Origin: a bacterium
GTDB lineage: Bacteria > UBP7 > UBA6624
NCBI GenBank assembly: GCA_014384545.1
Contig: JACNFQ010000070.1
Span: 1 to 10,835, forward strand
Reading direction: 5' to 3'
Length of the DNA stretch: 10,835 nucleotides
Shown here: positions 3 to 10,835 of the stretch, one piece after another
How the letters are laid out: each line of letters opens with the position of its first letter
Numbering within the stretch: the first letter of the stretch is position 1
Made by a program: the position numbers and the translations under genes
The notes under the pieces: generated by a model
Database searches by the model: none
What the model was told of the DNA's origin: nothing
What the model saw: the letters and a program-made list of their open reading frames with translations, nothing else

Positions 3-155
3 AAGCGACCCTCCTCCTCCGAAAGACCTAGCCAGATCGCCTATCTGAAGGCAATTCAGCGCATGTTTGCAGCGATGTCCCACGACAATTTCGCCGAAAC
101 CACCCAACCACCCTTGACATTCAATGGAAAGCGTGCTACACTATGGACACTATAG
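3..155 (+). CDS. possible 3' end of an unidentified gene (partial)
   Basis: This frame is open from the left edge of the window to a TAG at 153-155, about 50 codons. It includes a helix-like stretch (SQIAYLKAIQRMFAAMS) that reads like real protein, followed by a polar tail. No family is recognised. Against it, the last 14 codons run through a good promoter (114-142), and an open frame of this length can occur by chance in GC-rich DNA. The sequence upstream of the window is needed to decide. Confidence 0.25.
   Translation, partial: KRPSSSERPSQIAYLKAIQRMFAAMSHDNFAETTQPPLTFNGKRATLWTL
114..142 (+). promoter_or_regulatory. sigma70-type promoter of the 198-1349 operon
   Basis: A perfect -35 box TTGACA lies at 114-119. 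A 17-base spacer separates it from a -10 box TACACT at 137-142, which matches TATAAT at four positions including the key T, A and final T. Transcription would start near 149, giving a leader of about 50 bases with a ribosome site before the ATG at 198. It is the only promoter in the window with a clear -35 box. A 9-base direct repeat overlaps its -10 box and start point. Confidence 0.75.
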
Positions 156-1556: not shown

Positions 1557-2180
1557 CTAGGGATTGGGAGGTTGGGAGGTTGATGGAAGAGGTGCTCCTG
1601 CAAGTCCTAGGATTTCCGATTCTCCCTGCATGGCATCCAGAACGAACGCCATATGTTCCCAAAGGTCCACGCCCAAGGCTAGGGCACCTTTGGTCACGAG
1701 GTTCCTGTCCACTCCCGCCGCGAATGATAGCTGTTTCCACTTCTTGCGGATGGACTTGAGTTTGACCTCTCGGATGTCCTTGCTTGGGCGCACCAAGGCG
1801 ACGGCTGCGATCAGCCCTGTTACCTCATCGCAAGCGTAGAGCGTCTTTTCCAGAAGCGTTTCCCGACTTATGCCTGTGTGGTCGGCATGGCTGAGAATCG
1901 CCCGCAACGCCCAAGGGGGCCATCCCTCCGTTTCCAGCCAAGCCACCACCTTGTATGGGTGCTCTGAAGAGGTGGGGTGGCGTTCGTAGTCCAGATCGTG
2001 GAAAAGGGCGATAGCGCCCCAGGCTTCTTCATCTACCTCTTCAATCCCCTCCGCTGAGAACTTACGGGCATAGGCTCGCACCGCCACTTCCACCGACCGC
2101 ATATGCCTCTGGAGAGAGTGGGATGACACCCATCTGTCCAGCGTCTGTCCGGCACTCTCTCTGTCTGGTATCCATCCCAT
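1557..2180 (-). CDS. HD-domain phosphohydrolase-like protein, 207 aa
   Basis: The protein matches the pattern of the predicted HD-superfamily hydrolases of the COG2316 type, small cytoplasmic proteins without an established substrate. Metal-binding motifs are in order: H26 in a helical N-terminus, H61-D62 in FHDLDYE, H98/H101 in LSHADH, and D118 in YACDEVTGLI. The family-typical stretches VALVRPSKD (128-135) and KSIRKKWKQLSFAAGVDR (142-159) are present, so the domain is complete and should bind metal. The last 15 residues are a Pro/Ser tail that varies in the family. The ATG at 2180 has no Shine-Dalgarno sequence but has TAGACT exactly 6 bases upstream, so the mRNA is probably leaderless. It is divergent from the lipoprotein gene, with 53 bases between starts. 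Substrate (nucleotide or cyclic nucleotide) is unknown. Confidence 0.85.
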   Translation of the reverse strand: MGWIPDRESAGQTLDRWVSSHSLQRHMRSVEVAVRAYARKFSAEGIEEVDEEAWGAIALFHDLDYERHPTSSEHPYKVVAWLETEGWPPWALRAILSHADHTGISRETLLEKTLYACDEVTGLIAAVALVRPSKDIREVKLKSIRKKWKQLSFAAGVDRNLVTKGALALGVDLWEHMAFVLDAMQGESEILGLAGAPLPSTSQPPNP

Positions 2181-2192
2181 ACCCCTAGTCTA
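2181..2192 (-). promoter_or_regulatory. leaderless promoter -10 (TAGACT) of the HD gene
   Basis: On the minus strand TAGACT (2192-2187) is followed by six bases and then the ATG. No Shine-Dalgarno sequence fits. The complementary strand reads TAGTCT at 2186-2191, so the same site may serve as the -10 of the divergent lipoprotein gene. Confidence 0.5.
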
Positions 2193-2233
2193 TCGGTGAA
2201 ACTCCTCCCCTTATGATGGAGGTAAGTTCCGGT

Positions 2234-3667
2234 ATGAAGTATCTGATTCTCTCCCTCATTCTCTTTGTGGCCTGCGGCGGGGGAACTCCCACGCCGCCCC
2301 CTGCCCCCCTCTCTGCTTCCCTCCCCCCCGAAGTGCCCCAGTATTTGCGGGACTTGGTGGATAACAAGCCAACGGGAATCACTTACCATATGGATATCCA
2401 GGAAGCGTGTGCTGATAATGGGAACAATGGGCTTTTTCCCACTTGCAACGGAGGGCAGAGCACCGGAGGAAAACCGAACGGACCTATCAAGAATTTCGAT
2501 GGAATGTGGCGAGAGAACAACCCCGATGGGGTGGCTCTCTCCCCCGGAGACGAACTCCTTATCCACGCTGGCATCTATGCCCCAGCAGACTGCACCCCCT
2601 CCACCCAAACACTTTCCATCACCTTCCAAGGGAGCCAGGCGAACCCCATCCGCATCCGGGGAGAGGGGATGGGGATCACCATTCTTGAGGGAGGCTTTGA
2701 TCTGGACGACTTTGATGCGCAAGGGAATGGCGGATGCGGTCCCACCAACCACATTGACGACTACCACCAAGTGCCACGACTCCGCTTGGGCGGGCAGTGG
2801 GGCATCATCGAGAACCTCACCATCCAAGGTTGCTATCAGGTCTGTGTCTCTTTCTGGAGTGGATACGATTTCGTTTGGCAGGAGATCGAAATAGCAGGGG
2901 GCATAGAGGATGGTATCAAGACCACAGAGAGTTCAGGGCGGTTCTTGGTGTGGCGTGGAGATTTCCATGGGTGGGCTGGGGGGGGCGAAGCGTTGGACAA
3001 CTTTGGTGCTGACGACACATGGTATGCCCATAACACTTTCCACGATAATGATCGTTTGATTCGTCCTGGCGTGTATGGGCAAGTGATGTGGACCAAGGGT
3101 GGTGCCCATCGTGTCCACATCATTGAAAACAGTTTCAAAGACCTCATCATTGAGAGCCACGCTCTCAACTTAGGAGGGTGCTGTTGGAACAACTGGAGCC
3201 CCCCCGGAGGGAAGGGCAACGAACCAGTGGCCACGGATGTGGAGGCACTCCGAAATACCTTCACCAACATCACATTCAACCCCGCCTCTACCGCCTCCTA
3301 TCCAGGCGTGCTTGCGGTGGTGGGATGCTGGGACTGCCAAGCGATTGGCAACACGGTGGTGGATAGTCCCAATCCTTTCGCTGTCCAAGCGACCGCCGAC
3401 AACAGCAACGGTTGGCGTGTGCCTCCCAAAAACATCTTGTTTCAGGACAACCTTGCTGTGGGTATCCCCAACGGGAGAATCGTCTCTGCGACTTCATTGG
3501 ATGAACTCTCCACCACCACTTTTTCTGGGAACCTCTATTGCTTGGATGAATCCCCCACCTTCTCCATCAAGAATGAGTCCCCAGACCCCATGGACTGGTC
3601 AGCATGGCAAGGGCGGGGGTTTGATACCACCAGCATCCTCGCAACCACTGCCAACTGCCCTCCATGA
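2234..3667 (+). CDS. cysteine-rich beta-helix lipoprotein, 477 aa
   Basis: This is an exported lipoprotein. I chose the ATG at 2234 because GGAGGT at 2218-2223 is well placed and because translation then starts with a typical signal (MKYLILSLILFVAC) whose lipobox ends in FVAC, C14 being lipidated. A low-complexity linker (GGGTPTPPPAP) follows. From about 105 to the end the protein is built of parallel beta-helix rungs of the pectate-lyase-like type, with repeated N-ladder phrases such as IIENLTIQGC, AHNTFHDN, HIIENSF, LRNTF, AIGNTVVDS and FQDNLAVG. These folds often bind or cut polysaccharide, but I see no lyase active site. Besides C14 there are 12 cysteines (59, 71, 120, 168, 200, 204, 316, 317, 365, 368, 436, 475), enough for six disulfides. 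Its TGA overlaps the ATG of the VKOR-like gene. Runs of C7 (2323-2329) and G8 (2978-2985) lie in the frame. Confidence 0.85.
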   Translation: MKYLILSLILFVACGGGTPTPPPAPLSASLPPEVPQYLRDLVDNKPTGITYHMDIQEACADNGNNGLFPTCNGGQSTGGKPNGPIKNFDGMWRENNPDGVALSPGDELLIHAGIYAPADCTPSTQTLSITFQGSQANPIRIRGEGMGITILEGGFDLDDFDAQGNGGCGPTNHIDDYHQVPRLRLGGQWGIIENLTIQGCYQVCVSFWSGYDFVWQEIEIAGGIEDGIKTTESSGRFLVWRGDFHGWAGGGEALDNFGADDTWYAHNTFHDNDRLIRPGVYGQVMWTKGGAHRVHIIENSFKDLIIESHALNLGGCCWNNWSPPGGKGNEPVATDVEALRNTFTNITFNPASTASYPGVLAVVGCWDCQAIGNTVVDSPNPFAVQATADNSNGWRVPPKNILFQDNLAVGIPNGRIVSATSLDELSTTTFSGNLYCLDESPTFSIKNESPDPMDWSAWQGRGFDTTSILATTANCPP

Positions 3668-4017
3668 CACCCCATTGGACCCTCCATGCACTCTTGGGTT
3701 TCGCTTGGCTCAACGCCCTCACGTTTGAGCGGAGGGCAAAGGCGTGCGTCTTGGAGAGCCCCTGGGCCCGCTGGAGAGGGGTGCCCGTCACCAAAATCGG
3801 GTGGTTCGCCTACCCCGTCCTGTCGCTGGCTTGGCTCCTTGCCCCCCCCGATTGGCGCGAGGTCATCCGATGGGGCGCGGCTGGCGGGCTCTTCATCGCC
3901 AGCAGCAGGCAGGCATGGGGGTTGCGGTGGATCAAAGATCCCTGTCAAGCGTGCCTTTCGGGACACGCCCTTAACGCTATCGTCGTCTTGGGGCTGGTGC
4001 TAGGTTGGTTTGGGTGA
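3664..4017 (+). CDS. minimal VKOR-like disulfide-forming membrane protein, 117 aa
   Basis: This is probably a vitamin K epoxide reductase homologue, a quinone-linked membrane enzyme that reoxidises thiol oxidases so that exported proteins gain disulfides. The catalytic CXXC lies at C94-C97 in DPCQACLSGHA. The conserved loop CVLESPWARWRGVP (28-41) resembles the family's C...SPYA...GIP stretch, S32 matching the conserved serine. Hydrophobic segments lie near 5-20, 46-60, 66-82 and 102-116, a four-helix plan. At 117 residues it is shorter than usual bacterial VKORs (around 150 or more, often with a thioredoxin domain), and only C28 remains of the usual two loop cysteines. The start overlaps the lipoprotein stop (ATGA), so it is translationally coupled to a 12-cysteine exported protein, a likely client. 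A C8 run lies at 3842-3849. The family call rests on motifs only. Confidence 0.62.
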   Translation: MTPHWTLHALLGFAWLNALTFERRAKACVLESPWARWRGVPVTKIGWFAYPVLSLAWLLAPPDWREVIRWGAAGGLFIASSRQAWGLRWIKDPCQACLSGHALNAIVVLGLVLGWFG

Positions 4018-4024
4018 GATCGTT

Positions 4025-4034
4025 CTATCGATAG
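4025..4034 (+). repeat. perfect palindrome CTATCGATAG upstream of the antiporter
   Basis: This 10-base perfect palindrome ends six bases before the TAGACT -10 element of the antiporter gene. It could be an operator half-site or chance. Confidence 0.3.
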
Positions 4035-4039
4035 CCCTT

Positions 4040-4052
4040 TAGACTTCCCCTC
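4040..4052 (+). promoter_or_regulatory. leaderless promoter -10 (TAGACT) of the antiporter
   Basis: TAGACT at 4040-4045 lies seven bases before the ATG at 4053. There is no Shine-Dalgarno sequence in the 36-base gap and no recognisable -35 box at standard spacing. The gene therefore probably has its own leaderless transcript rather than being only the tail of the lipoprotein operon. Confidence 0.5.
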
Positions 4053-5093
4053 ATGAAGAGTTGGGGTTGGATGGTCGCTTCAGCGGGGGCTTGGGCTCTA
4101 GTCTGGGGTCCTGGGCATGGGTGGCCGAATGAACTCCGTTTCCTCGTGGCGTGTGGCGCAATCATCCCCCTTGCCGGGGGGATGGGGAAGGCGACCGAGG
4201 ACCTAGCCAACCGGTGCGGGGAGGCTTTGGGGGGATTCCTCAACGCAACCTTCGGGAATGCCGCCGAACTGATTATCGGTATCCTTGCCCTCAAGCGGGG
4301 TCTCATTCTCCTAGTCAAGGCGTCCCTTGTGGGATCAATCCTTGGCAACCTTCTCCTGGTGTTCGGGGCCGCCCTCTTGGCGGGAGGGTGGAAGCGGAAA
4401 GAGCAGGTCTTTAACCTCCAAGCCGCCACGGCGAGTTCGGCGCTCCTCGTCCTCGCTGTGGCGGGACTGGCCCTCCCTTCCCTTGAAAGGATGACACAGG
4501 GTGAGGCCCACGTTGGGTTCTCCACCGCCGCGGCCTATATCCTCTTGGGTGCCTATGGGCTCTCTCTCCTCTTCTCGCTGCGCACACACACCCACCTCTA
4601 CACCCACAACTGCCCCGAGGAGATGATCGACACCAAAACCACCCGCACCGCATTGGTAGGGAGGCTGGCCGCTTTCGCGGTCCTTATCGGTCTCTACGCC
4701 GAGGTGCTGGTCGGCGCTGTGGAGGGCGTCGCGGACTCATGGGGGTGGGGCGAGGTCTTTGTGGGCGTTGTCATCGTCGCCATTGTGGGGAACGCTGCCG
4801 AACACGCTTCAGCGGTGATGGTTGCCATGAAGAACCGCATGGATCTCTCCCTCCATATCGCTGCGGGAAGCACCACCCAAATCGCACTCTTCGTCGCCCC
4901 CGCGCTCGTCCTGGTTGGGCATGCGATGGGGCAACCGATGGATCTCGTTTTCTCCCCGCTGGAGGTGGTGGCGGTTGCGCTCTCCGTGGCGGGCTTCTCC
5001 CTCATCGTGCAGGACGGGCGTAGTAACTGGTTCGAGGGCACGCTCCTCCTCTCCCTCTACGCTCTCCTCGGCGTGGCGTTCTGGTTTGCGTAA
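4053..5093 (+). CDS. cax: Ca2+/H+ antiporter (CaCA superfamily, CAX type), 346 aa
   Basis: This inner-membrane exchanger uses the proton gradient to expel Ca2+ from the cytoplasm. Both signature alpha repeats are present. The first is GKATEDLANRCGEALGGF leading to FGNAAELI (E72 at the ion site), with GSILGN at 94-99. The second is IVGNAAEHA (E250), followed by GSTTQIALF at 272-280. The symmetrical arrangement with about ten or eleven hydrophobic segments and 346 residues is normal for bacterial CAX proteins. Between the halves lies a His/acid-containing loop (about 177-195: RTHTHLYTHNCPEEMID) that corresponds to the family's central hydrophilic loop. The ATG at 4053 has a -10-like TAGACT 7 bases upstream and no ribosome site. 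It is downstream of, but probably transcribed separately from, the lipoprotein-VKOR pair. Nothing looks broken. Confidence 0.93.
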   Translation: MKSWGWMVASAGAWALVWGPGHGWPNELRFLVACGAIIPLAGGMGKATEDLANRCGEALGGFLNATFGNAAELIIGILALKRGLILLVKASLVGSILGNLLLVFGAALLAGGWKRKEQVFNLQAATASSALLVLAVAGLALPSLERMTQGEAHVGFSTAAAYILLGAYGLSLLFSLRTHTHLYTHNCPEEMIDTKTTRTALVGRLAAFAVLIGLYAEVLVGAVEGVADSWGWGEVFVGVVIVAIVGNAAEHASAVMVAMKNRMDLSLHIAAGSTTQIALFVAPALVLVGHAMGQPMDLVFSPLEVVAVALSVAGFSLIVQDGRSNWFEGTLLLSLYALLGVAFWFA

Positions 5094-5197
5094 AATGTGG
5101 TTCTAATGAAAAGACGCCCTTATGTTGCGGATGCCCTTTTGACGGGGCTATTGTGCTTTGGTGCCAACGCCTTGAAGACTCCGTAACGATTTCCTTC

Positions 5198-5209
5198 TAG
5201 AATTCACCC
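5198..5209 (+). promoter_or_regulatory. leaderless promoter -10 (TAGAAT) of ispH
   Basis: TAGAAT at 5198-5203 lies six bases before the GTG start at 5210. No Shine-Dalgarno sequence is present. The nearest -35 candidate, TTGAAG at 5172-5177, has a 20-base spacer and is weak. The rest of the 116-base gap after the antiporter holds no convincing gene or terminator. Confidence 0.55.
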
Positions 5210-6139
5210 GTGCCCTTTGATATTATCATCGCTCAGCCCCGTGGATTCTGTGCCGGTGTGGATCGGGCCATTGAGATTGTTGAGCGTGCGCTTTCATCCC
5301 ATGGAGCCCCCGTCTATGTGCGCCACGAAATCGTTCACAATCGATACGTAGTGGAAAACCTCAAGAAAAAGGGAGCTGTTTTCGTGAACGAAGTGGCAGA
5401 GATTCCCGATGGTGGTGTCGCTATCTTTAGTGCACACGGTACTGCAAAAGCGGTCCTAGAACAGGCGTCCCAGCGTGACCTAACCGTGATTGATGCGGCG
5501 TGTCCTCTTGTAACAAAGGTCCACCGCGAAGCCATTCGCTACCACAAGGAAGGGTACTCAGTCGTCCTCATCGGTCATGCGGGGCATATCGAGGTGGAGG
5601 GGACGATGGGGCAACTACCCCCCGGAGCCGTCCATCTGGTGGAGAGGGCTGAAGATGTCACTTCCCTCTCCATCCCCGACCCCGAGCGGGTTGCTGTGAC
5701 GACCCAGACTACCCTCAGTATGGATGACACCGCCGAGGTGATGGCAGCTTTGAGGAAGACCTTCCCTTCCTTGGCTGTCCCCAAGGCGGATGATATCTGC
5801 TACGCTACCCAAAACAGGCAGAATGCCGTCAAATCTCTCGTTGAGACCTGCGACGTCGTCTTGGTGCTGGGTGCCCGCAACTCCAGCAATAGCAATAGAC
5901 TGCGCGAAGTGGGGGAACGAGCAGGCGCCAGTGCCTATCTCATTGATGATGAGGAATCCCTCAATCCCGATTGGGTGAAGGATGCCCGTATGGTGGGCGT
6001 CACGGCTGGCGCTTCAGCACCTGAAGTCTTGGTGAAAGGGCTGGTAAACCGTCTCGTTACTATTGGGGGCACCACACCTACATATCAAGAAGGCACCCCC
6101 GAGCGAATCACATTTCCTCTCCCCATAGAGATAGCTTAG
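5210..6139 (+). CDS. ispH: 4-hydroxy-3-methylbut-2-enyl diphosphate reductase, 309 aa
   Basis: This is the final enzyme of the MEP isoprenoid pathway: an iron-sulfur reductase turning HMBPP into IPP and DMAPP in the cytosol. The sequence is complete and canonical. Cluster cysteines are C14 (PRGFCAGV), C98 (DAACPLVTKVH) and C197 (ICYATQNRQ). Substrate residues include H43 (HEIVHNRYV), H76 (SAHGT), H126 and E128 (GHIEVEGTMGQ), the TQTTLS stretch near 165-170, S225/N227 (RNSSNSNRL) and the GASAPE loop near 267-272. Length is typical. The start is a GTG at 5210 with TAGAAT six bases upstream and no ribosome site, pointing to a leaderless mRNA. Its TAG overlaps the stop of the convergent metallophosphoesterase gene. 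The presence of ispH shows that the organism makes isoprenoids by the MEP route. Confidence 0.97.
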   Translation: MPFDIIIAQPRGFCAGVDRAIEIVERALSSHGAPVYVRHEIVHNRYVVENLKKKGAVFVNEVAEIPDGGVAIFSAHGTAKAVLEQASQRDLTVIDAACPLVTKVHREAIRYHKEGYSVVLIGHAGHIEVEGTMGQLPPGAVHLVERAEDVTSLSIPDPERVAVTTQTTLSMDDTAEVMAALRKTFPSLAVPKADDICYATQNRQNAVKSLVETCDVVLVLGARNSSNSNRLREVGERAGASAYLIDDEESLNPDWVKDARMVGVTAGASAPEVLVKGLVNRLVTIGGTTPTYQEGTPERITFPLPIEIA

Positions 6140-7137
6140 TCGGACAGTGACCCCATCGAAATCGGTTTGGTGTGGCTCCAGGTGTGCCACTCTGTAGTGG
6201 GTCGCTCTGGATCGTCCCGCGTCCACGCGACATCCCCTGCCTGAAGCCAGCCGTCCTTGATGCGGAAGACCGTGAAATGCCCCTGCTCACCGAAGGGCGT
6301 CCCCACGTTGTAGACGTCATACCCCTTCCACTGGTAGTGGCTTTCCTTGCGGGTGTTATGCACATGGCCGTGGATGATGGCGACGATATTGTATCCCTTA
6401 ATCACTTCGGCATACTCTTCCCGCTCACTCTCGGTCCACCAGCGGTCTTGGGTGCTGAAGGTATCAAATCCATAGTGGTGAATCAGGACAACGGGACGAC
6501 CCGAACCAGCAACCTGCTTCAAGAGAACACTCTCAAGAAACGCCAATGACCCTTGGGGATCTCGATGTGTGTCAGAACGGGGCCCACGACCAGGGTATAG
6601 GTTGAGTTGAAGGAAATGGACACCTTCCCAGACCCAGGTGTAGTGCCCATCTGTATCAATACCCAAAAGGTCGAATCTTTTAAGCATTCTTTCTCTTACC
6701 GCTTCTACCGCGGGCGCATCGCCACCGTACCACCAATCCTCTAAGGTGTCAAAGTCGTGATTCCCTGTGCCTTCATAGACTGGGAAATGGAGTTTTCCGT
6801 CCGTCCCATCCAGCCCATAGTCTTCTAAGAACCTCCCCAATTCGTTCGTCTCGCCAAACAGCCTCCACCGCCCATCCTGCCCGTTCTGCGTCAAGTCTCC
6901 TGCAATGAGAACGCCAAGCGGGGTTCTCACAGGTTCGCCCACCCACATAAACGCCGTGGGGGAACCATCCTCAAGTCTCTGCCCCCAGAGGGATCCTGGG
7001 AAGGTGTTCATCGCGGCAATCTGCCAGTCGTTCTTATCCTCTTGTCCACCACCATACTGGGGGTCGCCCATGGCGAAGAAAGTGATATCTGTTCCTCCAA
7101 GGAGAAGGAAGAAGATAGAGATAAGAAAGCGATTCAA
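6136..7137 (-). CDS. exported calcineurin-like metallophosphoesterase, 333 aa
   Basis: This is the last gene of the minus-strand operon. It is a two-metal phosphoesterase with motifs in order: GDPQ (D25, Q27), AGDLTQNG (D81), GTGNHDFD (N126, H127), LIHHYGFD (H220/H221) and IIHGHVH (H258, H260). The usual first motif D-x-H is D-P-Q, as in the CPPED1-like branch of the family. The start is a TTG whose bases overlap the arsC stop (TTGA), giving MNRFLISIFFLLLGG, a short signal-peptide-like segment; the substrate is thus probably extracytoplasmic. A later start would cut into the GDPQ motif. Long inserts between motifs (about 34-77 and 130-190) are rich in Trp and acidic residues. The TAA overlaps the ispH TAG on the other strand. 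The true substrate (phosphoprotein, nucleotide or phospholipid) cannot be read from the sequence. Confidence 0.88.
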   Translation of the reverse strand: MNRFLISIFFLLLGGTDITFFAMGDPQYGGGQEDKNDWQIAAMNTFPGSLWGQRLEDGSPTAFMWVGEPVRTPLGVLIAGDLTQNGQDGRWRLFGETNELGRFLEDYGLDGTDGKLHFPVYEGTGNHDFDTLEDWWYGGDAPAVEAVRERMLKRFDLLGIDTDGHYTWVWEGVHFLQLNLYPGRGPRSDTHRDPQGSLAFLESVLLKQVAGSGRPVVLIHHYGFDTFSTQDRWWTESEREEYAEVIKGYNIVAIIHGHVHNTRKESHYQWKGYDVYNVGTPFGEQGHFTVFRIKDGWLQAGDVAWTRDDPERPTTEWHTWSHTKPISMGSLSD

Positions 7138-7508
7138 AGGGTAGCGACCTTCGTTGCGATACGATCAAGAATCTCAGAAAGGAGATGGGGGTTTGATGCC
7201 GGATCGGGCAAGCCCCAATCCCAGTTTTTTTTGCCAGGGGGAATGGTGGGGCAAGCGTTTTCCATGCACCCCATCGTCACCACCAAGTCCCAATCCTCCA
7301 TCCCCCCCACATCACCCAACCCCTTGGAGAAAAGCCCTCTTGTGGGGATGCCCCTAGATTCAAGCGCTTCAAGAACGAGGGGATTTGGTGCCAAGGAGGG
7401 GGTTGTACCAGCACTCCCAACGACCAAGTCGGGTCGTATCTGGCGGGCGATTGCCTCGGCAGCAATGGACCGCCCCGCGTTGTGGCCACAGAGGAAGAGG
7501 ACCCTCAC
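7134..7508 (-). CDS. arsC: arsenate reductase, LMW-PTP fold (ArsC), 124 aa
   Basis: This is a cytoplasmic enzyme of the low-molecular-weight tyrosine-phosphatase fold, most likely reducing arsenate to arsenite with a thioredoxin-type or low-MW thiol donor. The P-loop is C7-GHNAG-R13-S14 right after the first strand (RVLFLC). A pair of cysteines in TMGCMENACP (C81, C86) is the redox relay typical of ArsC and absent from plain tyrosine phosphatases. D102 in LPDPAS is the catalytic acid. I chose the GTG at 7508 because it overlaps the symporter stop (GTGA) and puts strand 1 at the N-terminus; the open frame runs further upstream only into the symporter gene. Eight A's in a row (positions 7225-7232 on this strand) encode the KKN stretch. 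No ArsR, ArsB or Acr3 gene is seen nearby. Confidence 0.86.
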   Translation of the reverse strand: MRVLFLCGHNAGRSIAAEAIARQIRPDLVVGSAGTTPSLAPNPLVLEALESRGIPTRGLFSKGLGDVGGMEDWDLVVTMGCMENACPTIPPGKKNWDWGLPDPASNPHLLSEILDRIATKVATL

Positions 7509-8695
7509 CTCTTGGAGGATGCGTCCACCACGGCGGCACCCACTCCGTCTCCCCAGACGTTGACCGTGGTGCGAAATCTGTCCAAGAACCAATCCACCCC
7601 AATGATGATTCCTGCACCCTCAAGGGGGAGTCCCACAGCCGTCAAGACCAACGCCATCGTTACCAGTCCTGCTTCGGGTATGCCGGCAGCACCGATGCTT
7701 GCCAATGTCGCTGTGAGGGCGATGACGATTAGAGAGCCTAATGAGAGCTCCATTCCATACGCTTGCGCAATAAAGACGACGGCGACCGCTTCGTAAAGGG
7801 CGGTGCCGTCCATGTTGATGGTGGCACCCAAGGGGAGGACGAACTTCGCTGTCCTTTGAGAAACACCCGCATCTTCTACCCTCTCCATTGTGAGAGGAAG
7901 GGTGGCGCTGCTGCTTGCTGTGGAGAAGGCGTTGAGGAGGGCAGGTATAAGGGTCTTGGCGTAGGCCAGCGGAGAACGCCCCGTCTTTTTGAGGAGAAGG
8001 ACGAGAGTAATGAGGGCATGGAAGAGGAGCCCCGCAATAACTACGACCATGTACTTCCCCACCCCCCCCAGAATCTCCAACCCCCTTGTGGCAACGGTGG
8101 TGGCAACGATCGCAAAGACCCCGTAGGGTGTCAACCGTATCACCCAACCTGTAATGCGCATGACTGCCTCGAACATCGTTCTGAAAAACGCCCCTGCATC
8201 CCGTCCTTTCTCGCCCAACGATCCAATAGCGAATCCCATCAACAAACCCCAAAAGATAACAGGTAAGACCTTCCCGTCCGCCAAAGCCTCTACAGGGTTT
8301 TGGGGGATGAAGGAGAGGAGGATGTCCCGCACGCTCGTCCCCCTCTCTACTGCGGCAGGCGCATCAAAAGACCCCATCTCCAACCCGAGCCCAGCCCCTG
8401 GTTGAATCGTCGTGACCAATACCAACCCCAGCGTCACTGCAAGCGCGGTAGTCAGTAGGTAATACCCTATCGTATGGAAGGCGAGGCGTTTCGCACCTCC
8501 CTCTCCAGCCTCCATCGCCGAGAGCGCTGCTGTCACCATACTAAAGAGAACCAACGGGATAATGAGCATCTTCAGCAAGCGAAGGAAAAGGGTACCGACT
8601 GGTTCGACCCATTCCGCTCCTGTGGGCCAAAAAGCACCGAGTGCCAGTCCGGCAAGAAGTCCTACGAGAATACGGGGTCCGAGGGTACGATTCAT
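7505..8695 (-). CDS. dicarboxylate/amino-acid:cation symporter (DAACS family), 396 aa
   Basis: This inner-membrane importer couples uptake of an acidic amino acid or dicarboxylate to Na+ or H+. It is the first gene of the operon. The family's hallmarks are all present: the serine-rich hairpin FSTASSSATLP (257-267), GATINMDGT (290-298), the second hairpin IGAAGIPEAG (334-343), and DWFLDRFRTTVNVWGD (368-383). R375 sits where the archaeal glutamate transporter GltPh has the arginine that holds the side-chain carboxylate, so glutamate or aspartate is the better guess over neutral amino acids. Length is normal for a bacterial member. The ATG at 8695 has TAGGAT five bases upstream; its AGGA can also act as a ribosome site. 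The gene ends in a GTGA overlap with arsC. Confidence 0.92.
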   Translation of the reverse strand: MNRTLGPRILVGLLAGLALGAFWPTGAEWVEPVGTLFLRLLKMLIIPLVLFSMVTAALSAMEAGEGGAKRLAFHTIGYYLLTTALAVTLGLVLVTTIQPGAGLGLEMGSFDAPAAVERGTSVRDILLSFIPQNPVEALADGKVLPVIFWGLLMGFAIGSLGEKGRDAGAFFRTMFEAVMRITGWVIRLTPYGVFAIVATTVATRGLEILGGVGKYMVVVIAGLLFHALITLVLLLKKTGRSPLAYAKTLIPALLNAFSTASSSATLPLTMERVEDAGVSQRTAKFVLPLGATINMDGTALYEAVAVVFIAQAYGMELSLGSLIVIALTATLASIGAAGIPEAGLVTMALVLTAVGLPLEGAGIIIGVDWFLDRFRTTVNVWGDGVGAAVVDASSKR

Positions 8696-8721
8696 AGTGC
8701 ATCCTAGACCGTAGGACTAGG
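8696..8721 (-). promoter_or_regulatory. start region of the symporter operon with inverted repeat
   Basis: On the minus strand TAGGAT (8706-8701) is followed by five bases and the ATG. It can be read as a leaderless -10 or as a ribosome site (AGGA). An inverted repeat, CCTAGACC at 8703-8710 and GGACTAGG at 8714-8721 around GTA, with one mismatch in eight, overlaps it. A repressor bound there could block the operon. This is inference. Confidence 0.45.
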
Positions 8722-9001
8722 GCGGTGGTGCTGGGCTACACACCCAAGAAGACGCGTTGCGGGAGCCCCCGGGCACCTCCTGGTTTGGGGGAGGCTCTCC
8801 GTCATGTGCGCCGATAGTCTCATGCCACAGCAAAGGGGGCTGGTCAGGAGAGCGCGCATGTGCCTCAGGAGCGGGATAGAGGAAAACCCCCTTACTTTGA
8901 GCCCCGCTACTTACATTGAGGTTTAGGGACCCGTACGGGGCATTGGCGTTCTTGGGGCAAACTTTGCCTAGAGCCAAAGGTCATTGCGGAGGGTCTCGTA
9001 G
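8722..9001. other. gene-free stretch with a GC-rich hairpin
   Basis: No protein with convincing coding character is seen here on either strand. The clearest structure is at 8762-8800: GGAG and CCCCC (8762-8770) pair with GGGGG (8787-8791) and CTCC (8797-8800), with a 16-base loop and a 5-base bulge. A second small stem on the minus strand pairs CTTGGG with CCCAG near 8735-8752. CATGTGC occurs at about 8804 and again near 8857. I compared it by eye with SRP RNA, tmRNA, RNase P and common riboswitches and found no match. Confidence 0.35.
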
Positions 9002-9388
9002 GCGACCATCGACCAGACAAATTCTCGTTCCGCAAGCATCTACCTCAACCATCCTGTTCCTGCCCATGTAGAGGAACTCGCCTCCTTTTGGTGGCTGTGG
9101 GATGCAGAGGCGATGTTGGATGGCAATCCCTTTTCGGCAGGGGACCTGGCTCTTTATCCCAGCGATGCTCCCAACGGGCTTCCCCATATAGATTGCCTGA
9201 CAACAGAGGGGTCTGTTTGGCAATGGGGACGGTCCCTTATTGAAAGGGAGGAGACAGCGTACTTTCGTCAGAGTTCTACCGAACAAATCCTCTCTTGCTT
9301 TGGGTTTTTTGCCAGCAACCCAACTGCTGTCGCATTCACCTTCGCAAGGTCTCTGCAAAGAGCCGGCAATGGACATATCGTAGGATAA
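9002..9388 (+). pseudogene. fragment resembling a membrane glycosyltransferase
   Basis: This frame is open from just after a TAG at 8999 to a TAA at 9386, about 128 codons, but has no ATG, GTG or TTG until 9113. The protein-like part already begins upstream of that ATG: HPVPAHVEELASFWWLWDAE, then MLDGNPFSAGDLALYPSDAP. The phrase W-W-L-W-x-A-x-x-x-L-x-G-x-N-P-F...D-L-x-x-YP is typical of the first large loop of multi-membrane-span mannosyl/glycosyltransferase-like proteins, just after their first helix. That helix is missing, and the later part (residues about 65-128) lacks the expected membrane helices. It is therefore most likely the remnant of a larger gene with both ends lost. An unusual start codon or a small exported protein is the alternative. 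Family assignment is from motif memory only. Confidence 0.4.
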
Positions 9389-9392
9389 GCAG
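9381..9392 (+). promoter_or_regulatory. TAGGAT start signal of the phosphodiesterase gene
   Basis: TAGGAT at 9381-9386 lies six bases before the GTG at 9393. As in the symporter gene, the AGGA inside it could act as a Shine-Dalgarno (7-base spacing) or the hexamer as a -10 for leaderless mRNA. It overlaps the stop codon of the upstream gene fragment. Confidence 0.45.
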
Positions 9393-10421
9393 GTGTTCTT
9401 CCTCCCTGTTCTCCTCACCTTACTTCTCCCCGGGCAACTCTCCCCCCCCTTTGACCATGTGCTGATTATCAGCGTGGATGGGATGCGGGGAGATGCCTTA
9501 GGGGTTTGGGGAGAAGAGGGCTTGCCCGTCTTCCATTCCCTTTGGGATGTGGGAACGGTAAATGCCCGCACAGATCCCCTTCACACCAAGACGATGCCCA
9601 ACCATACGGGGATGATGACCGGGCGACTCGCCGAAGGGGAGGGGGGGCACGGATGGCTAACGAATAGGGACGATCCCGACGGGGGGACACTCCAAGAGAA
9701 CCTTGGCGGCGCCCTCACCTCCTTCTTTGATGTAGCACATAGCGATGGTGTGCGCACTTATCTCTTTGGGGGGAAAGGGAAGTTTGACCTTTTTACCCGG
9801 AGTTGGCAGGAGGTCTTGGATGTCGTCTTTGTGAATGATCTCTCAGACATCGCTACAACAGAAGTTGAGAATGGAATGCCCTTGGACGAGGCGCTTTTGG
9901 CACCATCGGAAGAGGTTGTAGACGCCCTATTGGAAAGATGGGATCCCCAAAGACGCTCTCTCGTTTTTCTACATTTGGCTGCACCCGACGGGGCGGGTCA
10001 CACAGAGGGGTGGAACTTATCTCTAGATTCCCTTTATGGACGCGCCTTGATGGGGACGGATGCATTGGTGGGACGGGTTCTTACGCATATTGAAGGGAGC
10101 AGAGGATTGGCAGGGCGCACAGCACTTATCCTGACCTCCGATCACGGAGGGGGTGCTCCTCACCGCCACCATGATCGTCCGGAACTGTGGGTGGACTTTG
10201 CGATTCCGTTTCTCGTTTGGATCGGTGGAGATGGAGGGGGGCAAGACCTTTACCTTTTGAATCCCCAAAGAGTAGAACCTGGCATCCTTCTGGGGGATGC
10301 TCCCATCAGAAACAGCGATGGTGCAAACCTCGCCCTTGCCCTTCTTGGACTACCAGCGATAGAGGGTTCTACTCAGAACAGTAGCCAAGACCTTCGGGTT
10401 TATCCCTTTCCTGCTAGATAG
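9393..10421 (+). CDS. exported phosphodiesterase, alkaline-phosphatase superfamily, 342 aa
   Basis: This is a two-zinc hydrolase of the type I phosphodiesterase/nucleotide pyrophosphatase group. The GTG start gives a short signal-like segment (MFFLPVLLTLLLPGQ), so the enzyme probably acts outside the inner membrane. Metal and catalytic motifs appear in order: ISVDGMRGD (D29), TKTMPNHTGMMTG (nucleophile T67, H71), APDGAGHTEG (D199, H203) and TSDHGGG (D250, H251), followed by a His cluster at 257-260. Threonine as nucleophile fits phosphodiesterases rather than serine-type alkaline phosphatases. It is shorter than eukaryotic NPPs and has a compact cap. A C8 tract at 9442-9449 sits just after the signal sequence and a G7 at 9641-9647. 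Substrate is not predictable (nucleotide, phospholipid or teichoic-type diester). Hairpins follow the stop, so it is probably a single-gene unit. Confidence 0.88.
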   Translation: MFFLPVLLTLLLPGQLSPPFDHVLIISVDGMRGDALGVWGEEGLPVFHSLWDVGTVNARTDPLHTKTMPNHTGMMTGRLAEGEGGHGWLTNRDDPDGGTLQENLGGALTSFFDVAHSDGVRTYLFGGKGKFDLFTRSWQEVLDVVFVNDLSDIATTEVENGMPLDEALLAPSEEVVDALLERWDPQRRSLVFLHLAAPDGAGHTEGWNLSLDSLYGRALMGTDALVGRVLTHIEGSRGLAGRTALILTSDHGGGAPHRHHDRPELWVDFAIPFLVWIGGDGGGQDLYLLNPQRVEPGILLGDAPIRNSDGANLALALLGLPAIEGSTQNSSQDLRVYPFPAR

Positions 10422-10486
10422 GTGAGGCTCCCACACCACGCCATCCCATCACTCACCATAAGGTTGGGGATGGTTAGGCTCTAACC
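10421..10486 (+). terminator. cluster of overlapping hairpins after the phosphodiesterase gene
   Basis: Three stems can form: GGTGAG (10421-10426) with CTCACC (10452-10457); CCATCCC (10441-10447) with GGGATGG (10467-10473); and GGTTAG (10472-10477) with CTAACC (10481-10486) around a 3-base loop. They share bases, so they compete. None has a T-run. They could end or protect the upstream mRNA, or regulate the next gene. Confidence 0.4.
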
Positions 10487-10563
10487 TGTGCGGATTGAAT
10501 ACCCATCGGTTCATAGGTACAGTCGCTCTGCTTGTGGCATAAGAACGGGCAGTCATCTTGGAG

Positions 10564-10575
10564 TAGACTGGTGTG
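10564..10575 (+). promoter_or_regulatory. leaderless promoter -10 (TAGACT) of the last gene
   Basis: TAGACT at 10564-10569 lies six bases before the ATG at 10576. A GGAG at 10560-10563 is 12 bases from the start, far for a ribosome site. No -35 box stands out. Confidence 0.5.
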
Positions 10576-10835
10576 ATGAAACGGTATAGATTCCTTTTGC
10601 TGATCCTCTGCTTGGCTGTCGCTGGGGGGACGGGAGAGCGAGAGGATCGTTGGGACGAGGCATTGGGGATTCTGGGATTGGAAGAGGAGGCATTGGGGTT
10701 CCGCCCCAAAGGGTATTGGGCACGGTATCCCCTGCCAGTGGAGCGCGGAATCCCCTATGTACTACCCGCATTCAACGACCTCTTGGCTGAACCCCTGCGT
10801 ATTCATGATTACACGAACTCTCTAGGCCACGCTGC
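10576..10835 (+). CDS. exported protein of unknown function (N-terminal part)
   Basis: The gene runs off the right edge after 86 complete codons. It begins with a classic signal peptide: a basic MKRYR, then FLLLILCLAVAGG with a likely signal-peptidase I site after AVA. The C12 context (LILC) is a poor lipobox. The mature part starts with a highly acidic and basic segment (GEREDRWDEAL), then two leucine-rich helices and aromatic stretches (GYWARYPLPVERG). It ends in LRIHDYTNSLGH. I recognise no family. TAGACT six bases before the ATG suggests its own leaderless transcript, separate from the phosphodiesterase gene 154 bases upstream. Confidence 0.75.
   Translation, partial: MKRYRFLLLILCLAVAGGTGEREDRWDEALGILGLEEEALGFRPKGYWARYPLPVERGIPYVLPAFNDLLAEPLRIHDYTNSLGHA

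Follow-up and report, generated by a model that had tools for sequence, protein, structure and literature searches.

The hexamer TAG[A/G]AT, together with TATAAT and TAGACT, is in all likelihood (probability about 0.9) the housekeeping -10 box of an uncultured bacterium, and the copies that end 6 or 7 bases before a start codon would give rise to leaderless mRNAs. Among the signals considered, the promoter -10 box is the one that the hexamer matches best.

How would a gene preceded by such a box be expressed? The housekeeping RNA polymerase would read TAG[A/G]AT, and also TATAAT and TAGACT, as its -10 box. With sigma-70-type polymerases, initiation falls some 6-7 bases past the -10 hexamer, so that at roughly one-third of the divergent genes, where 6 or 7 bases separate the box from the start codon, the first base of the transcript would be that of the start codon or the one preceding it. 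The resulting mRNA would carry neither a leader nor a Shine-Dalgarno site, and the ribosome would then start on its 5'-terminal AUG or GUG, while the downstream genes of an operon would be translated via stop/start overlaps and Shine-Dalgarno sites. The -10 hexamer would be the sole conserved element at most of these promoters, chance copies inside genes having been purged. Judged from the DNA, transcription very probably begins on or next to the start codon, with sigma contacting the box and ribosomes initiating on the leaderless end.

The window, that is, the whole stretch of DNA analysed (10,835 nucleotides), is contig C97 of an assembly of 107 contigs, 1.39 Mb and 79% completeness. We infer that the source organism is an uncultured marine bacterium from the same family as the genomes of UBP7, or Candidatus Bimafiota. 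Members of this phylum come from marine and saline habitats, with genomes of 0.83-1.39 Mb and a G+C content of 35.63-52.53% (PMC11382960); the source genome (1.39 Mb, 52.5% G+C) falls near the top of this range. Genome-wide counts were made on stretches of the same genome totalling 686 kb at first and 807 kb later. Gene starts, 680 in number, were called with a home-made periodic Markov model that ignores the upstream sequence and is thus blind to the motif; for the six window genes discussed below, it chose the same start as the earlier note in three cases (ispH, the symporter and the last gene). As for the 3' end of the 16S rRNA and its anti-Shine-Dalgarno sequence, these were looked for in the assemblies, and no rRNA was found.

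Boxes and genes in the window

The earlier note had described TAGNNT 5-7 bases upstream of six start codons, and all six copies were read directly in the window. The candidate boxes and their genes are the following:

2187-2192, minus strand: candidate -10 box TAGACT, 6 bases before the ATG (2180-2178) of the HD-domain gene
1557..2180, minus strand: HD-domain gene, predicted leaderless; match to PF01966 just under the cut-off
4040-4045, plus strand: candidate -10 box TAGACT, 7 bases before the antiporter ATG at 4053
4053..5093, plus strand: antiporter of the Na/Ca-exchanger family (PF01699), predicted leaderless
5198-5203, plus strand: candidate -10 box TAGAAT, 6 bases before the ispH GTG at 5210
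5210..6139, plus strand: ispH with a GTG start, predicted leaderless; relatives at 50-64% identity; start picked motif-blind
8701-8706, minus strand: TAGGAT, either a -10 box or an AGGA ribosome site (uncertain), 5 bases before the symporter ATG (8695-8693)
7505..8695, minus strand: dicarboxylate symporter (PF00375), heading a unit with the genes at 7508 (LMW phosphatase, PF01451) and 7137 (phosphoesterase, PF00149)
9381-9386, plus strand: candidate -10 box TAGGAT, 6 bases before the phosphodiesterase GTG at 9393
9393..10421, plus strand: type I phosphodiesterase with a GTG start, predicted leaderless; PF01663 from residue 23, N terminus resembling a signal peptide
10564-10569, plus strand: candidate -10 box TAGACT, 6 bases before the ATG of the last gene at 10576
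10576..10835, plus strand: last gene, ATG start, predicted leaderless; extends past the end of the window; start 10576 picked motif-blind

In this genome TAGNNT has a background of roughly 0.5% for each offset and start, so that finding it at offsets 5-7 before six of about 13 window starts corresponds to p ~2e-8. The operon-internal genes at 496, 1017, 3664, 7508 and 7137 lack the motif, as had been noticed before, and four of the five begin in an overlap (GTGA at 1017 and 7508, ATGA at 3664, TTGA at 7137). The product of one of them (3664-4017, plus strand) is a small membrane protein that matches the vitamin K epoxide reductase family weakly, below the threshold, and the start of this gene overlaps the stop of the preceding lipoprotein-like gene.

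Position, direction and avoidance of the hexamer

Does the arrangement extend beyond the window? TAGNNT stands at offset 6 or 7 before 66 of the 680 motif-blind starts; dinucleotide shuffling gives 4.6 +/- 2.0, with 10 as the highest value among 60 shuffles. Offset by offset, there are 37 copies at 6, 29 at 7, 1 at 5 and about 3 at each of the others. The enrichment that the earlier note had proposed to look for at 5-7 bases is thus found at 6 and 7, and fails at 5 (1 of 680). The symporter, with its offset of 5, is the weakest of the six cases, and whether it has a box or a ribosome site is uncertain. A count independent of the gene caller, made before every ATG, also peaks at 6 (73 against 33.6 expected), with 53 at 7, and the same test with TAT, TAC or TAA in place of TAG is flat. 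In a ranking of some 86,500 pairings of a gapped word with an offset, the top places go to TANNAT and TAG words at offset 6; the whole assembly contains 59 instances of TAGAAT-N6/7-ATG and 7 with the N15/16 spacing.

Of the 100 intergenic TAG[A/G]AT copies directed at a start, 52 lie at an offset of exactly 6 or 7 when starts are refined towards the motif; with motif-blind starts, and with TATAAT included in an enlarged set, the count is 49 of 149. About one-half to two-thirds of the start-pointing TAG[A/G]AT and TATAAT sites therefore lie farther upstream: either leadered genes use them too, or some of the starts are miscalled. A blind two-motif EM did not keep TAGGAT apart from AGGA ribosome sites, and its fractions were of no use.

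Alignment of the sites yields the consensus TAG[A/G]AT, of which TATAAT and TAGACT are weaker versions; the motif of the earlier note exists, and its TAGNNT is narrowed. Between genes, these hexamers are strongly oriented. The ratios of copies directed towards and away from the start are 56:1 for TAGAAT, 41:5 for TAGGAT, 21:0 for TATAAT and 31:6 for TAGACT, to be compared with 56:44 for all intergenic DNA and 10:25 for TTGACA. The motif precedes 26 of 102 divergent genes versus 26 of 460 same-strand genes, and with start errors allowed for, the excess amounts to 30-35% of the divergent and about 2% of the operon-internal genes. Inside genes the picture is one of avoidance: no hexamer is avoided more strongly in coding DNA than TAGAAT/ATTCTA (28 seen versus 155 expected, both strands), TAGGAT/ATCCTA ranks next, and the density of TAGAAT per base is 17-fold higher between genes than within them.

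Could the hexamer instead belong to an alternative sigma factor, as the -10 box of a single regulon and not of the housekeeping genes? The genome does contain a second sigma-70-family gene (L144:3637-4515). However, TATAAT behaves in the same way as TAG[A/G]AT, and a signal that stands ahead of about one-third of the divergent genes, and is avoided in coding DNA more than any other hexamer, is too broad for one regulon, so that this explanation is very unlikely.

Less probable still is a ribosome-binding signal of the Shine-Dalgarno kind, with AGGA as its core in the TAGGAT cases. The AGGA within TAGGAT does lie at a usable distance, and AGGA words likewise peak before starts, but TAGAAT, which lacks AGGA, is equally frequent. 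The motif clusters at divergent genes, Shine-Dalgarno sites in contrast being most frequent within operons, and coding DNA is purged of the motif on both strands, which is not what a ribosome site would predict. A Shine-Dalgarno site accompanies only 1 of 68 box genes versus 221 of 610 others. Another point is the base at -1 of the start codon, which is T in 19 of 31 six-base cases (61%) versus 134 of 530 elsewhere (25%, p = 4e-5); if the A of ATG were +1, a T would be expected there, as for an initiator. The earlier suspicion that the two TAGGAT copies in the window might be AGGA ribosome sites does not hold for TAGGAT in general, which favors the direction of starts and has 19 copies at 6/7. 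Since it behaves as TAGAAT does, the doubt is limited to the symporter.

Taken together, the 6/7 peak, the direction, the position at unit starts, the replacement of Shine-Dalgarno sites, the T at -1 and the coding purge argue for a -10 box and against a ribosome site, and they give computational support to the earlier proposal that the boxes are the -10 elements of leaderless units. A product of chance, or of TAG stop codons accumulating before starts, has a negligible probability: TAG at offset 6 is indeed in frame with the start codon, but offset 7, out of frame, is nearly as strong, the in-frame offsets 0, 3, 9 and 12 are near background, an A at position 5 and a T at position 6 accompany TAG, and the enrichment occurs where the upstream neighbour points away.

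Promoter elements, relatives and sigma factors

The hexamer seems to stand almost alone. At 16-18 bp upstream, matches to TTGACA average 2.39 for all sites and 2.39 for the control, and for TAG[A/G]AT alone 2.52 versus 2.40 +/- 0.09. The statement that -35 boxes are not recognisable near the six starts is thereby borne out as a trait of nearly all sites with the hexamer, with few exceptions. Directly before the hexamer there is no enrichment of TG or TGN, as an extended -10 would require, and within 100 bp upstream there is no spacing-shifted -35, no A/T tract or A/T-rich region, and no other word.

Canonical TTGACA promoters do exist in the genome, a handful in all. The window itself has a textbook example at 114-142 (plus strand), where TTGACA and TACACT are separated by 17 bp. 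In divergent pairs with 25-40 bp between the starts, -10 boxes on opposite strands lie back to back and fill the entire gap, so that any -35 would fall within the opposite gene.

Two sister genomes of low G+C content (35%) from the same family show a weak peak, the same avoidance of TANNAT words and, by the TTGACA test, no -35 in either. Among their orthologues of the leaderless genes, 9 of 31 have TANRAT at 6-8, versus 9 of 214 others (p = 6e-5). In a screen of 38 unrelated genomes, the TAGAAT-N6/7-ATG peak also appeared in two, G018 (36 versus 4) and G021 (32 versus 1), the latter with a sigma C-terminus that we take to be Thermus-like. The leaderless TAGAAT dialect is thus probably present in other groups too.

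Which protein would read these boxes? In the primary sigma (L074:3327-4772, minus strand, contig C55), region 2.4, which reads the -10, is conserved by alignment. About 90 extra residues lie inside region 3, a feature common to both sisters. In region 4.2, which reads the -35, the turn of the helix-turn-helix is six residues longer (KKLSEADGKPLTRERVR versus KKLNVTRERVR), an insertion that only the source genome has among those aligned. The second sigma-70-family factor (L144:3637-4515, plus strand, contig C69) matches regions 2 and 4 and not region 3.

The insertion in region 4.2 is not supported as the cause of the -35 loss: the sisters lack the insertion and also lack the -35, G018, with a normal helix-turn-helix, and G021 show the same peak, and some TTGACA promoters persist in the source genome. 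A wider proposal is that the standard promoter of the lineage, leadered and leaderless alike, is a bare -10 made specific only by genome-wide purging, and that the primary sigma, with its enlarged region 3 and, here, the widened turn of region 4.2, has largely stopped reading the -35. We regard this as unlikely. The sigma inserts offer a concrete protein for asking how a housekeeping polymerase copes with almost no -35 sites.

Comparison with known leaderless systems

What does this add to the story of leaderless expression? It extends the -10-adjacent form to an uncultured phylum and suggests a gene-calling rule for it, namely to seek TAG[A/G]AT 6-7 bases before starts. It also indicates that a draft genome can reveal leaderless use without RNA, through position, direction, missing Shine-Dalgarno sites and avoidance in genes. 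A narrow literature search turned up no earlier report of leaderless genes from the UBP7 phylum, from uncultured bacteria or from metagenome assemblies.

A computational survey of 953 bacterial genomes detected leaderless genes in 207 of them (Zheng et al. 2011, PMC3160421). As for the -10 motifs, another study (PMC1939733) describes selection on them across bacterial genomes, shaping their placement. The present genome resembles that account in that the placement of the -10 hexamer appears to be under selection; it differs in that avoidance falls on TAGAAT, the top avoided coding hexamer, and not on TATAAT only.

A close parallel is Deinococcus, where experiments have established a -10 that lies 6-7 bp before the start, mostly has no -35 and suffices alone (PMC12340547). 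Like Deinococcus-Thermus (PMC12340547, PMC3160421), the UBP7 genome combines a -10 at 6-7 bp with mostly no -35 and no ribosome site; unlike it, the word is TAG[A/G]AT instead of TANNNT/TACACT, and the organism is an uncultured member of a different phylum, known here from sequence alone. In Actinobacteria, a TANNNT-type -10 adjoins the start codon of a large minority of the genes of Mycobacterium tuberculosis (PMC3898074). The likeness to this phylum (M. tuberculosis and Streptomyces) is the TANNNT-type -10 beside the start codon, and the difference is that the UBP7 genome has G as the third base.

It is well supported that the mechanism proposed for this genome is one already known from Deinococcus-Thermus and Actinobacteria, apparently spoken here in a dialect of its own, TAG[A/G]AT. 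The -10 consensus of Streptomyces is TAGRRT.
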